From Candidatus Latescibacterota bacterium (GTDB lineage Bacteria; Latescibacterota; UBA2968; UBA8231), in contig JAJEIO010000051.1 in assembly GCA_022827835.1 (NCBI GenBank), positions 54,192 to 118,191 on the forward strand: a stretch of DNA of 64,000 nt. The letters are read 5' to 3'. The position numbers and the translations under genes were made by a program. The notes under the pieces were generated by a model, which was given only the letters and a program-made list of their open reading frames with translations, did not search any database and was not told the DNA's origin. This document shows positions 53,550-60,235 of the stretch, piece after piece (the stretch's first letter is position 1; each line of letters begins with the position of its first letter).

Positions 53550-54911
53550 GTGGACTTTCAACTCAACGACGACGAGATACTCGCCTTTATCGCGCGCGGG
53601 TACCATATCTTCCACCCCGCGATCGACGAGGAGATACACCAAGCGGTTTGCGCGCAGACTCGCGCCGCCTTTGTCGAGGGCAAAAATCCCGGCAACGCCA
53701 TCTACGAACAGGTCCCGGCACTTGCGCAGGTGTTGTCGCATCCACAGGTGGTGGGGGCACTGACGAGCATCTTGGGCGCGGATTATCACATGCTCTGCCA
53801 TCGCCATGCCCACCTGACCCAACCCGGCCAAGCAGCCGGCGGGTTTCACCAAGACGGGACGCCCCGAACCCTGCGGGGCTGGACCCGCCCCTGGCGCTAT
53901 GGGCATCGGCCGCGCAAGGTGTTGCTGGCGTACTTCCCCCATGCAGTGCCCAAGGAGTTGGGACCGACGACCTTGGTGCCCGGGTCGCAGTACTATCGGC
54001 AACGGCCCGAGGCAATGGAAGCCTTGGAATGCGGGGTCGAGGGCGACGCCGGGATAATGGCCATCTGCCACTTCTCGTCCTGGCACCGAGCCGGAGCTAA
54101 TACGAGCAACACTGAGCGGATTATGCTCAAATTTGTCTTCGACCGCCGGGGCGAACCGCAAGAGCCGAGTTGGAAGGCCGCAGCCTCCTACCATCCCGAT
54201 TTTGCCGCAATCGCACGCCAATGGTCGGCACTCCCCGACGGACGCTTGTTGTGCCTGCCCAAAACTTGGCAGACCATGTGGAATTGGCTTGGCGGTCGCG
54301 GAGCTGAACGGCTCGGCGGCACGGCATCGCTGGAGTCGCTATTCCAAAATTTAGCGTCAGACCAAGAACACGAGGCGCTGGAAGCGGCCTATGGTCTAGG
54401 CGGACAAGTAGATGCTGACGGAGCGCAGGCTTTAGTCTCCCGGATGCGCCACGGAGACGAGCAAGAGCGCGAGATGGCCGCGGTGGCGCTGAGTGCGGCG
54501 GGTCGCGTCGCCGTGGATGCGCTGCGCGAGACGCTGGCGGACCCCGACCCGTGGCTGCGGGCGATGGCCGCGGACATCGCGGGCGATCTGGGCCGCGAAA
54601 GTCTGTCGCTAGTGCCCGATATTGAGCGCGCTCTAGACGACGCAGATGTCTGGGTGCGGCACAATGCGCTACAAGCGCTGGCACTATGGGGCCGGGAGGC
54701 GCGCGATGCAGAGGAACGGGTAGTAGAGGCACTGACCGACGCCGAGCCTTTTGTGCGCTTCAACGCCCTCGGCGCGCTGATGAGTATGCGTTCCTTGGAT
54801 GCGCGTTGCGCCGAGTGGTTTAAGCACGTCGCCGCCAACGATGAAGCGCATCCCCAATGGCGAGCACAAGATGCGTTGTCGCGCTGGGACAACGCCGAAT
54901 TGCGCTATTAG
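53550..54911 (+). CDS. Phytanoyl-CoA dioxygenase domain fused to HEAT repeats
   Basis: A 453-residue fusion. Residues 1-260 are a PhyH-type Fe(II)/2-oxoglutarate dioxygenase with the iron triad HxD...H in GGFHQDGTP and SSWHRAGAN, plus an Arg-containing strand ERIMLKFVFDR. Residues about 270-450 form HEAT/PBS-lyase-like repeats (EREMAAVALSAAGRVAVDALRETL, WLRAMAADIAGDLG, VWVRHNALQALALWG, PFVRFNALGALMSM). GTG start with GAGGAGG upstream. PhyH enzymes hydroxylate diverse small molecules; the repeats suggest a protein partner. Substrate unknown. Followed 20 bases later by the ceramidase-like gene. Confidence 0.86.
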   Translation: MDFQLNDDEILAFIARGYHIFHPAIDEEIHQAVCAQTRAAFVEGKNPGNAIYEQVPALAQVLSHPQVVGALTSILGADYHMLCHRHAHLTQPGQAAGGFHQDGTPRTLRGWTRPWRYGHRPRKVLLAYFPHAVPKELGPTTLVPGSQYYRQRPEAMEALECGVEGDAGIMAICHFSSWHRAGANTSNTERIMLKFVFDRRGEPQEPSWKAAASYHPDFAAIARQWSALPDGRLLCLPKTWQTMWNWLGGRGAERLGGTASLESLFQNLASDQEHEALEAAYGLGGQVDADGAQALVSRMRHGDEQEREMAAVALSAAGRVAVDALRETLADPDPWLRAMAADIAGDLGRESLSLVPDIERALDDADVWVRHNALQALALWGREARDAEERVVEALTDAEPFVRFNALGALMSMRSLDARCAEWFKHVAANDEAHPQWRAQDALSRWDNAELRY

Positions 54912-56773: not shown

Positions 56774-57805
56774 TCAGCTACTGAACCCCACTTCGCGCTC
56801 CCCTCGGTCGGCCGCCTCCTGAATGCGAATGACGTTGCGTGTCGAGCGCAGCACCGCAGTGGTGTCGAGGCCGTTGGCGGGAACTTTGCCGGCGATGTCG
56901 TCGAGGAAGGAGCGCAGGTAGCCGCCCCGTTGGGCCGGGGGTAGCGGCTCGATCTGCACGGTGGCGTCTTCCCTGCCGAGCACTTGAATGTCCTTGGCCG
57001 TAGTCGCAGTCTCGATTACTCCATCCCGTCCCCAAAACGTAGTCCGCCAGTAGTAGGGCATCGTATAGCCCGCCCTATCGGGTGCAAAGTACGACACATC
57101 GCCCAAGACCCCGCAGCCATTGTCCATCTCCAGCATCATCTGCCCGGCGTCCTGCATGTGGAAATCCTCGGGAACAAGAACCCGCCAGCAGCGCGCGGCG
57201 TTAATCTTCGCCCACTGGCGGCCCGTGACCCAAGGCAAAGCGTCGATGGCGTGGATGCCAATATCCGTGATGGTGCCGCCGTGCTTGCCCTGTTCAAAAT
57301 ACCAGTCGGGCCGCGAGCCCAAGAGCAGTGGGTGTTGGCCACCAAAGGCGATGGCGTGGACTTCGCCGATGCGATCGGCTTGAATCAGGTTGCGTGCGCC
57401 GATAAACGCAGCCGAGTCGCGCATGGTCAACATGCAGCCGACCTTGAGGTTTTTCTCGCCTGCCAGCGCCTCAATGCGGTCGAGGTCGGCCATACCAGTA
57501 CACAGAGGTTTGTCGCCAATGACGTGTTTGCCGCGCGAGAGGGCTTCAATCAGCACCGGGCCGCGACCAGCAAAATAGGTACCGGTCGCAACGATATCAC
57601 AGTCCACCTCGTCGAGCATTTGCTCAATCCGCTCGTGGGTAATTGCGGCAGTACCCTTTGCGCGGATTTCAGCGCGCGTCTCCGCGTGCTCCTCGCACGC
57701 AGCTACCACTTCAAGCGCGGGCGAGGCGCAGGCTAGTGCGTAGAGGTCGAAGATGTGGCCGTGGCGGAAACCGGCGAAGGCAATTTTGTGCGGGGTTTCA
57801 CTCAT
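56774..57805 (-). CDS. Gfo/Idh/MocA-family oxidoreductase
   Basis: A 343-residue NAD(P)-dependent dehydrogenase of sugar or polyol derivatives. The N-terminal Rossmann fold begins KIAFAGFRHGHIFDLY, with GFRHGH in place of the usual GxGxxG. The family motif EKP appears as GKHVIGDKPLCTG, and the C-terminal domain contains the GGTITDIGIHAIDALPWVTG signature with the catalytic-region histidine. It ends the five-gene operon, 12 bases after the RraA-like gene. Substrate unknown. Confidence 0.87.
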   Translation of the reverse strand: MSETPHKIAFAGFRHGHIFDLYALACASPALEVVAACEEHAETRAEIRAKGTAAITHERIEQMLDEVDCDIVATGTYFAGRGPVLIEALSRGKHVIGDKPLCTGMADLDRIEALAGEKNLKVGCMLTMRDSAAFIGARNLIQADRIGEVHAIAFGGQHPLLLGSRPDWYFEQGKHGGTITDIGIHAIDALPWVTGRQWAKINAARCWRVLVPEDFHMQDAGQMMLEMDNGCGVLGDVSYFAPDRAGYTMPYYWRTTFWGRDGVIETATTAKDIQVLGREDATVQIEPLPPAQRGGYLRSFLDDIAGKVPANGLDTTAVLRSTRNVIRIQEAADRGEREVGFSS

Positions 57806-57817
57806 CCCTACCTCTGC

Positions 57818-58546
57818 TCACGATTCCTTTTCATCGTCGCCGTACGAGTGCCCGCCGAAGATGGCCCGCAGTTCGGCCGCGGATGTGGCTTGGCGCATTT
57901 GGGCCATGCGCTCGGCCTCGTGTTTTTGCAGGGCGCGGACGTTTTCCAGCACCGCGCTGAGCTTGTCCGCGGGGAATTTCACTGCGCCGTTTTCGTCCAT
58001 GTGGATGATCTCGCCGGGAGCCACATCCATACCGGCGACCGAGACCGGAACATTGACCGCGTGGACGGCTTGGGCACCGTGACCAGCGGTGACGCCGCTG
58101 AGCAAGTACTGGAACTTCATCGGGCGAATCTCGTCGATATCGCGCGAAGGCCCATTGGAAATCGCGCCGACGCAGCCAATGGCCTGCATGGCCGTGGTCA
58201 TGTTGCCGCCGGCTAGGCCGACCTTGCCCGCGATTTCGGGCGGAAACTTCTGCTGGAAGACCAAGATCGTCGGCTTGGGCGAGGCGTCGAGGGCATCGAG
58301 AACGTCCATGAAGCTAACGCCGCTGTAATTGGGATCGGGCAGGCCGTAAGTGCAAGTGACCGCGTAACCGACCGTAGGGCCAAGCTCGGGATACATGCAG
58401 CGCAGCGACTGATCGGTGTACCAGTTTTCGCTCCAGGGATTGTACAGCCCCAAGCACAAGGGGTCGCCCGGATAGGTGGCGACAACGTTGGTAATGGAAG
58501 GCGCGTCAAAGTTTTTCAGCTCTTCAAGCATTTCTTGTTCAGTCAT
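57818..58546 (-). CDS. RraA-family protein (aldolase-like)
   Basis: A 242-residue member of the RraA/HMG-aldolase fold. Motifs include LKNFDAPSITNVVA at the N-terminus, GLAGGNMTTAMQAIGCVGAISNGPSRDIDEI in the core (family pattern G...GA...G..RD) and HMDENGAVKFPADKL near the end. Members include the RNase E inhibitor RraA and oxaloacetate/hydroxy-methylglutarate aldolases. The catabolic neighbours favour an aldolase or decarboxylase role, by inference. AGGAG precedes the ATG. Confidence 0.83.
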   Translation of the reverse strand: MTEQEMLEELKNFDAPSITNVVATYPGDPLCLGLYNPWSENWYTDQSLRCMYPELGPTVGYAVTCTYGLPDPNYSGVSFMDVLDALDASPKPTILVFQQKFPPEIAGKVGLAGGNMTTAMQAIGCVGAISNGPSRDIDEIRPMKFQYLLSGVTAGHGAQAVHAVNVPVSVAGMDVAPGEIIHMDENGAVKFPADKLSAVLENVRALQKHEAERMAQMRQATSAAELRAIFGGHSYGDDEKES

Positions 58547-58576
58547 TAGAAGCTCCTGATTGGGTAATGGGAAAGA

Positions 58577-58957
58577 TCAACCTGCGTCTATCGCTTTCTT
58601 CTTTAGCGCATAGTAAAACAGATTCGCTACGAGGAACATAGCAAGGATGGTCAGATAGGCACCTATTGTGCCGATCTCTTTCTCAAGAACGGCAAACACA
58701 GCATTGACGATGATCAGCGCTACACAGTACAGCGCGAAGACATGCCACCACTTCAGAGCACTTCCTCCTTGCGTCGTCGCTTTCTTCTTTAGCGCATGAT
58801 AAAACAGACTAGCAGATACTAAAAGCATCGCGAGGCCAATCAAATAGGCTCCTATTACGCCGATCTCACTCTCAGTAATAGCCGTCACAGCATTGATGAT
58901 GAGCAGCGCACCATACAGTGCGAAAAAATGCTGCCACTCAAAGTTCCAACGGTCCAT
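58577..58957 (-). CDS. Two-module membrane protein B (four helices, unknown)
   Basis: A 126-residue protein of no family I recognise. It is two tandem copies of a module of about 60 residues: a short aromatic amphipathic start (DRWNFEWQHFFALYG / LKWWHVFALYC), one hydrophobic helix, an acidic short loop (ESEIGVIGAYL / EKEIGTIGAYL), a second helix ending FYHALKKKATTQ / FYYALKKKAIDA. The basic ends imply cytoplasmic linkers, hence four membrane helices with both termini inside. ATG 58957 has AGGAGGAAG upstream; the longer track start is rejected. It sits between its sister and the RraA gene. Confidence 0.8.
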   Translation of the reverse strand: MDRWNFEWQHFFALYGALLIINAVTAITESEIGVIGAYLIGLAMLLVSASLFYHALKKKATTQGGSALKWWHVFALYCVALIIVNAVFAVLEKEIGTIGAYLTILAMFLVANLFYYALKKKAIDAG

Positions 58958-58970
58958 AGCACTTCCTCCT

Positions 58971-59396
58971 TTAATCTGCGTCCGTTGCGTTTTTACGTCG
59001 CGCATTCTTCCGCGCATGGTAAAACACATTAGCAGATACTAAAAGCATCGCTAGTACGACCAAATACATGCCTAAGTCTGCGACAAAAGATGAAGACGGG
59101 CCCAGCAAGATCCGCACTATCGAAGCACCCATGACGAACGCTGCGATATACAGACCGAGGACATCCCGCAACTTAAAATGCCAACGGTTCAGGGCACTCG
59201 CCTCTTGCGTCGTCGCGTTTTTCTTGCGCGCATGGTAAAACACATTAGCAGATACTAAAAGCAGAACGAGTATGTTCAATGCGCGTAAGTCCACCAAGGA
59301 TGCAGACATCAATATCCATACGATTGCAGAACCGAGGGTTAATGCCGCGCCGTACAGCACGAGGACATCCCGCAACTTAAAATGCCAACGGTTCAT
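58971..59396 (-). CDS. Two-module membrane protein A (four helices, unknown)
   Basis: A 141-residue sister of the next gene, also made of two module copies. Both begin NRWHFKLRDVL.LY and end LLVSANVFYHARKKNATTQ or a close variant; the second has a few extra basic residues (KNARRKNATDAD). The copies share exact DNA blocks of 35 and 37 bases, so duplication is recent or maintained by conversion. An AGGAGG site precedes the ATG. Thirteen bases separate it from copy B. In a catabolic-looking operon a transporter or membrane adaptor role is possible, unproven. Confidence 0.8.
   Translation of the reverse strand: MNRWHFKLRDVLVLYGAALTLGSAIVWILMSASLVDLRALNILVLLLVSANVFYHARKKNATTQEASALNRWHFKLRDVLGLYIAAFVMGASIVRILLGPSSSFVADLGMYLVVLAMLLVSANVFYHARKNARRKNATDAD
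59011..59047. repeat. 37-base module repeat, copy 1
   Basis: Identical to 59227-59263; encodes the end of the second helix and basic linker of module 2 in protein A. More diverged versions lie near 58795 and 58595 in protein B. Confidence 0.9.
59157..59191. repeat. 35-base module repeat, copy 1
   Basis: Identical to 59361-59395, 204 bases (68 codons) away; encodes the NRWHFKLRDV start of each module in protein A. Confidence 0.9.
59227..59263. repeat. 37-base module repeat, copy 2
   Basis: Exact partner of 59011-59047, offset by 216 bases, a multiple of three that keeps the frame. Confidence 0.9.
59361..59395. repeat. 35-base module repeat, copy 2
   Basis: Exact partner of 59157-59191; covers nearly the first eleven codons of protein A. 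Confidence 0.9.
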
Positions 59397-59422
59397 GTTA
59401 AGCCTCCTGATGGAGTAATGCT

Positions 59423-60235
59423 TCAGTGCTGATCGCGGCGCGGCAGGATCGGCTGATTCTTCAACTCGCGGATTAGCTCTACAAGCCCTTCAGTCGCCGC
59501 TGCTAAAAACTTTTCGCCCTTTTCCTTGGTAGCTTTGGTCGCGTCTCCCATAACCCCGCTACCCGTCTGCTGGCTCCAATAGGGTATCAGCCGCGCACCC
59601 GATCCCTCGGGATGCGTGCCGGCCAACAGGTCGGTGCGGAAACTAGGCGACAGCGGCGAACGCTCGTCAACAGCCTTGTCCATCTCCACCAACTCCGGCT
59701 TGAGCGCCAAGTAAAGCGAAGTCTCGTATTCGCCGGCGTGCGAGGTTCCGCCGTAATCCGAGTCGCGCAGTTGGTTGCCCACGGTCTTGGCGCGGCGTAT
59801 ATCCCAGTGATTGACCGAGGCACAGAGGATCTGGCCCTCGTATTCGAGGACAGTGAGACGGGCCGCCAAGTCGAGCGGCGAGGTATTGGAGCCGTGGCCA
59901 TTGACGATGAGGATGCGCTTAAAGCCGTGGTGGGCCAAGCTGCAACACACGTCTTTGACGTAGCGGATAAAGGTGTCCCACGTAATGGTCAGGGTGCCGT
60001 GAAAATCCATGTGGTGCGGGCTGTAGCCGTGAGTGACGGGCGGAGCGAGCACGGCTTCCTCTGGGATGCGGGCCACGGCGCGCTCGCAGATGCCGTGGCA
60101 CAGCACCACGTCCGTATCCACCGGCAGATGCGGGCCGTGGTCTTCGTGGGTCGCAACGGGCAGCACGGCCACGCGCCCCTCAGCAGCGGCGTCCCGGGTC
60201 TCGTTCCAGATCATTTCAGCGTAGCGGTATTTCAC
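59423..60235 (-). CDS. Creatininase-family amidohydrolase
   Basis: A 270-residue metal-dependent amide or cyclic-amide hydrolase. Metal-site motifs are clear: VLPVATHEDHGPHLPVDTDVVL (Glu, His, Asp), LIVNGHGSNTSPLD and TSHAGEYETSLYL. The family includes creatininase, the FAPy deformylase ArfB and mycofactocin MftE; none can be chosen here. GTG start with AAAGGAG upstream. First gene of the operon creatininase, modules A and B, RraA, Gfo/Idh, so a small catabolic pathway is likely. Confidence 0.88.
   Translation of the reverse strand: MKYRYAEMIWNETRDAAAEGRVAVLPVATHEDHGPHLPVDTDVVLCHGICERAVARIPEEAVLAPPVTHGYSPHHMDFHGTLTITWDTFIRYVKDVCCSLAHHGFKRILIVNGHGSNTSPLDLAARLTVLEYEGQILCASVNHWDIRRAKTVGNQLRDSDYGGTSHAGEYETSLYLALKPELVEMDKAVDERSPLSPSFRTDLLAGTHPEGSGARLIPYWSQQTGSGVMGDATKATKEKGEKFLAAATEGLVELIRELKNQPILPRRDQH

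Follow-up and report, generated by a model that had tools for sequence, protein, structure and literature searches.

Two small adjacent genes on the minus strand raise the question of how a membrane protein made of repeated parts arises, and what such a protein does. They lie in the window, the whole stretch of 64,000 nucleotides that was analysed, between genes for catabolic enzymes. Tandem duplication and fusion of smaller units is the presumed origin of many small membrane proteins and carriers, although such events usually leave no visible joint. In this pair the joint can still be read and can be compared in seven species, and the duplication and fusion route is therefore testable. The wider importance is limited, because the protein is an orphan within one genus.

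Two adjacent genes with four copies of one module

The upstream gene, P2 (58971 to 59396), encodes a membrane protein of 141 amino acids, and P1 (58577 to 58957) one of 126 amino acids; each consists of two tandem two-helix modules. P2 is divided into module 1 (59193 to 59396, 68 amino acids) and module 2 (58974 to 59192, 73 amino acids, first bases CTG-AACCGTTGG). In P1, module 1 (58757 to 58957) has 67 amino acids including the linker discussed below, and module 2 (58580 to 58756, first bases CTG-AAGTGG) has 59, with a 5-residue in-frame deletion relative to the other modules. All of these lie on the minus strand, and all four modules match the module profile. The mechanically called P1 reading frame opens upstream, at 59029; we chose the ATG at 58957, because a perfect AAGGAGG precedes it at a suitable spacing and the start codons of all relatives align with it.

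Every module contains two hydrophobic segments, and the four are homologous by comparison with shuffled sequences that preserve the layout of those segments (z 7 to 16). The two P1 modules align with a score of 163 against a shuffle maximum of 77, and the two P2 modules with 171 against 79. The P2 modules also share exact in-frame repeats on the minus strand: a 36-bp block with a period of 204 (59360 to 59395 and 59156 to 59191), and a 37-bp block with a period of 216 (59227 to 59263 and 59011 to 59047). Exact blocks that involve P1 are 21, 18, 22 and 14 bp long. An earlier note on this DNA had described four module copies in two adjacent genes and attributed the modules to tandem duplication, and the reading frames, the exact repeats and the module homology bear out both points. 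Its 37-base block and its periods of 204 and 216 bases also stand, whereas the block that it gave as 35 bases is 36 bp long.

The note's catabolic setting was likewise found. A creatininase-family amidohydrolase gene lies upstream of P2 (59423 to 60235, PF02633, E 1.3e-69), and downstream of P1 are genes for an RraA-like aldolase (57818 to 58546, PF03737, E 2.8e-20) and, beyond it, a Gfo/Idh/MocA oxidoreductase (56774 to 57805), all on the minus strand. Further neighbours tested were a ceramidase-like gene and a PhyH gene, with Ddl beyond. A scan for promoters and terminators gave results near shuffle levels, with 6 terminator-like sites against 3.5 expected.

Coding status and rate of evolution

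Homologues amount to nine genes, and all nine are open in frame, whereas the other frames hold stops in every copy. All lengths are multiples of three, insertions and deletions are in frame, and codon position 2 is the least changed. This pattern of substitution indicates that P1 and P2 are real proteins; the stops and frameshifts in relatives that would have spoken against a protein did not appear. The low GC content, the repeats and one copy at an ectopic site could also suggest a mobile element or a noncoding repeat with a chance reading frame. We disfavor this explanation as highly improbable, given the stops in the other frames and the codon-position bias, a DNA search of 11 genomes of the genus that found no noncoding copies, and a search of Rfam that gave no match.

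For P1-type genes, omega (Nei-Gojobori) is mostly 0.3 to 0.8 and is highest, at about 1.0, for the pair G000_P1 and G010. Creatininase and RraA have omega values of about 0.005 to 0.13 in the same species pairs at similar dS. In protein sequence, the membrane genes thus evolve roughly tenfold faster than the enzymes on either side. The open frames and the omega values together imply genes that are coding but fast-evolving and weakly constrained, and the high omega, near 1 in one pair, means that the protein could be near dispensable.

Distribution within one genus

The nine genes are spread over 7 of the 11 species sampled from this genus. P1 has orthologues in six other species (64 to 81% identity), and P2 has one in the species labelled G001 (59% identity). 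In five carrier species the only such gene is of the P1 type and sits between RraA and creatininase or what is left of it; in the window species P2 precedes P1; and G001 combines a P2-type gene at this locus with one of the P1 type at an ectopic site. Although gene number thus varies between one and two per species, the number of modules does not: each of the nine genes has exactly two (18 module matches), and the variation in module number that the earlier note had proposed to look for among relatives is absent.

Outside the genus, the nine-member alignment, run against 53 genomes from elsewhere in the phylum, found no homologue, and none was found in about 80 further genomes. Relatives were also absent from the plasmids, viral contigs and genomes outside the genus that were searched. 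A single-module profile run against 147 relatives reaching other phyla gave only two weak matches (E 0.004 and 0.035). The sole named public record with a homologue is a metagenome-assembled genome labelled Gemmatimonadetes bacterium SB0661_bin_36. In a tree of creatininase, RraA and Ddl, two species that lack the gene, G005 and G008, branch outside the seven carriers, which fits a single gain of the gene family. Creatininase and RraA are separated by 70 bp in G008. In G005, about 500 bp of unrelated sequence lie between them (L053:4637-5136), and these resemble the decayed end of an outer-membrane-type gene.

Two species separate the membrane gene from its usual neighbour. In G007, creatininase is a pseudogene (L047:8247-8723) with residues about 23 to 128 deleted (~107 residues) and a frameshift; the membrane gene downstream is intact, and a search of the genome at E <= 1e-60 gave no second creatininase. 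A decayed creatininase C-terminus precedes the ectopic P1-type gene of G001 (L046:8225-8724, contig C96), indicating that a small segment was duplicated or relocated to a position next to an SDR gene. Because the gene is intact both beside a dead creatininase and at the ectopic site, it is not tied to a working creatininase.

A serious rival to any functional reading is that these are near-neutral young orphans or accessories, in which a gene for a membrane-inserting peptide, of little function, is being acquired, copied and lost. Patchy presence within the genus, the high omega values and the lack of relatives elsewhere are consistent with such a history, as is a GC3 of 0.54 to 0.56 in P1 and P2 against 0.73 to 0.77 in neighbouring genes. 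However, all nine copies are intact with in-frame indels only, they have good ribosome-binding sites, and the gene has survived both its relocation and the decay of its neighbour. We regard near-neutrality as doubtful, though deserving of real weight.

Comparison with known families

P1, P2, the nine-member alignment and single modules were used as queries against family collections. No Pfam family scored above its cut-off for any of the nine members, and NCBIfam, PHROGs and PDB sequences gave only weak, sub-threshold hydrophobic matches. Ten helix-preserving shuffles yield similar weak matches, the best at E 0.0017, to unrelated families. The module therefore remains unrecognised, as the sequence alone had suggested, and this holds for single-module searches as well. 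The best Pfam score of P1 is to DUF7313 (PF23995; E 8e-4, 20 bits against a curated cut-off of 27), which matched 4 of the 9 members; this match is not separable from composition, because the helix-preserving shuffles reach E 0.0017.

Three known groups resemble the pair in plan, and of these YiaAB looked the most promising. The adjacent Escherichia coli genes yiaA and yiaB encode small inner-membrane proteins of unknown function, and YiaA (145 amino acids) visibly has two two-helix units with basic ends, as in P1 and P2. The tandem two-helix plan of YiaAB is present here, with the profile matching twice per gene, but only the plan is alike and the sequences are unrelated: an own-genome search for YiaAB (PF05360) at E <= 0.1 gave no match, and hhalign against YiaA gave a probability of 0.2%. 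SMR/EmrE carriers, proton-coupled exporters of cations, have about 110 to 140 amino acids and four helices and are sometimes encoded by paired genes, like P1 and P2. SMR (PF00893) is absent among the listed Pfam matches of the nine members at E <= 1. SMR proteins have a conserved membrane-embedded Glu in helix 1, whereas the alignment of the new family shows no acidic residue conserved within a helix, its acids lying in the start and the outer turns, and SMR is one four-helix fold rather than two parallel tandem modules. The small carrier subunits TctB and DctQ share with the pair four helices and a catabolic gene setting. Neither gave a match that stands out from noise (TctB at E 0.77 falls far short of its cut-off), and no large permease or binding protein of the TctB/DctQ type is among the adjacent genes examined.

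The earlier note had suggested a new carrier or membrane adaptor. On this reading the small proteins would serve the creatininase, RraA and Gfo/Idh catabolic genes; the four-helix small subunits of TRAP or TTT carriers offer a comparison. The tandem two-helix anatomy is compatible with this proposal, and eight of the nine genes lie between creatininase and RraA. We nevertheless consider it unlikely. The TctB, DctQ and SMR models do not match above cut-off, and no conserved acidic residue lies inside a helix. Creatininase is near-invariant (omega about 0.01 to 0.1) and occurs in G008 and G005 without the membrane gene, and the membrane gene persists beside the dead creatininase of G007 and away from the usual locus in G001. 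As far as the sequences tell, nothing points to transport specifically.

The linker as a probable old gene joint

The modules are joined by a linker of the form KK(K/N)ATTQGGSA-(M/V/L)-NRW. The ribosome-binding leader of P1, AAGGAGGAAGTGCT (58958 to 58971, minus strand), overlaps the P2 stop codon, and the same 14 bp recur inside P1 (58757 to 58770, minus strand), where they are read as QGGSA; all 14 leader bases are identical. In G007, leader and linker are both AAGGAGGAAGTTCC, again with 14 of 14 bases identical, and the identity continues through the start codon into ATGAACCGTTGG. When each gene's own 14-nucleotide leader is compared with the entire gene, the linker is the best match in six of seven P1-type genes and the third best in the seventh. 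The codon at the position of the old start is ATG in five genes, GTG in two and CTG in two. Moreover, the P2-P1 junction (..GCAACGGACGCAGATTAAAGGAGGAAGTGCTATG) is converted into the P1 linker (..GCGACGACGCAAGGAGGAAGTGCTCTG) by removing 1 + 6 bases that include the stop codon.

These correspondences indicate that the linker preserves, as a fossil, a former boundary between genes, at which a ribosome-binding site and a start codon came to be translated. Because the P1-type linker DNA repeats the leader and start, a one-module gene was probably duplicated in tandem together with its ribosome-binding site and then fused. The module profile search found no unfused one-module gene in any genome, so the ancestral one-module state and the order of events are read from the linker alone. 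The literature that was searched offered no usable precedent for a linker derived from a ribosome-binding site, and nothing usable on YiaA and YiaB.

In the two P2-type genes the leader is another one, similar to that of RraA, and the match between leader and linker is absent. Their modules cluster together in the module tree, apart from the P1-type modules (support 0.996), and gene conversion within P2 in recent times is suggested by the long exact blocks of the window copy.

The internal start site

In G000_P1, G007 and G002, the linker carries AAGGAGG with a 7-base spacing before CTG, ATG or GTG, and its predicted duplex with the anti-Shine-Dalgarno sequence (-11.4 kcal/mol) is within the range of real leaders (-6.5 to -12.2 kcal/mol). 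Such genes might yield two products, if the internal Shine-Dalgarno and start were still active and the second module were also made alone, as a partner with two helices for the full-length product. A site of nearly true-leader strength in three genes, and M, V or L (ATG, GTG or CTG) at the linker start position in all nine, are what this model predicts. However, the site is weak in four of nine genes, CTG starts are rare, and a recent fossil accounts for the site equally well. Across the nine genes, site strength is only marginally above that of synonymous recodings (P 0.07 with the genes' own codon use and 0.017 with that of neighbours). The strength of the internal Shine-Dalgarno is thus, on the sequence comparisons, not clearly selected, and needs no explanation beyond a recent fossil. 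We think a second product improbable, and give somewhat less credence still to the related idea that these genes stand midway between two genes and one, with the fused four-helix protein and a free second module co-assembling.

Proposed origin and working form

We propose, with a probability of about 60%, that P1 and P2 are paralogues from a young family of small inner-membrane proteins, restricted to this genus, that arose by leader-carrying tandem duplication and fusion and may act as oligomeric accessories. The ancestor would have been a one-module gene of about 60 amino acids, with two transmembrane helices and its own Shine-Dalgarno, that was duplicated in tandem together with its leader. 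A small deletion would then have removed the first stop, so that the former C-terminus, together with the ribosome-binding site and start codon that followed it, was turned into the linker of a four-helix protein. A second duplication of the fused gene would have given P1 and P2, and gene conversion may have partly rehomogenised the P2 modules, as the 36- and 37-bp blocks suggest.

Segments rich in K and R occur at both ends and in the linker, and the outer turns of P1-type modules are mostly short and acidic (ESEIG, EKEIG). Under the positive-inside rule, the acidic turns and the K/R-rich linker and C-terminus suggest that both modules have the same orientation, with the N- and C-termini in the cytoplasm. 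AlphaFold models, built from three sequences (the window sequences and L032), predict four helices, with pLDDT values (59 for P1 and 50 for P2) that are too low for a reliable comparison of packing or fold. The working form is probably a bundle of four helices that assembles into homo- or hetero-oligomers.

Our best guess for the function of the family, held with low confidence, is that of an accessory membrane protein acting as an oligomer. The step from form to role, in which the protein would be accessory or modulatory under weak constraint, is tentative, and we rate it as possible rather than probable. A dedicated pathway role is not indicated, given the restriction to part of a genus, the weak constraint and the persistence beyond creatininase.

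Other features of the neighbourhood

The P2 leader CATTACTCCATCAGGAGGCTTAAC (59397 to 59425) resembles the RraA leader CATTACCCAATCAGGAGCTTCTA (58547 to 58575), an apparent case of leader copying within the operon. Elsewhere in the window, the protein encoded at 53550 to 54911 combines an N-terminal match to PhyH (phytanoyl-CoA dioxygenase) with C-terminal HEAT repeats, an unusual-looking fusion. The end of its gene overlaps the start of the next ORF, which has a weak Pfam match and appears ceramidase-like.
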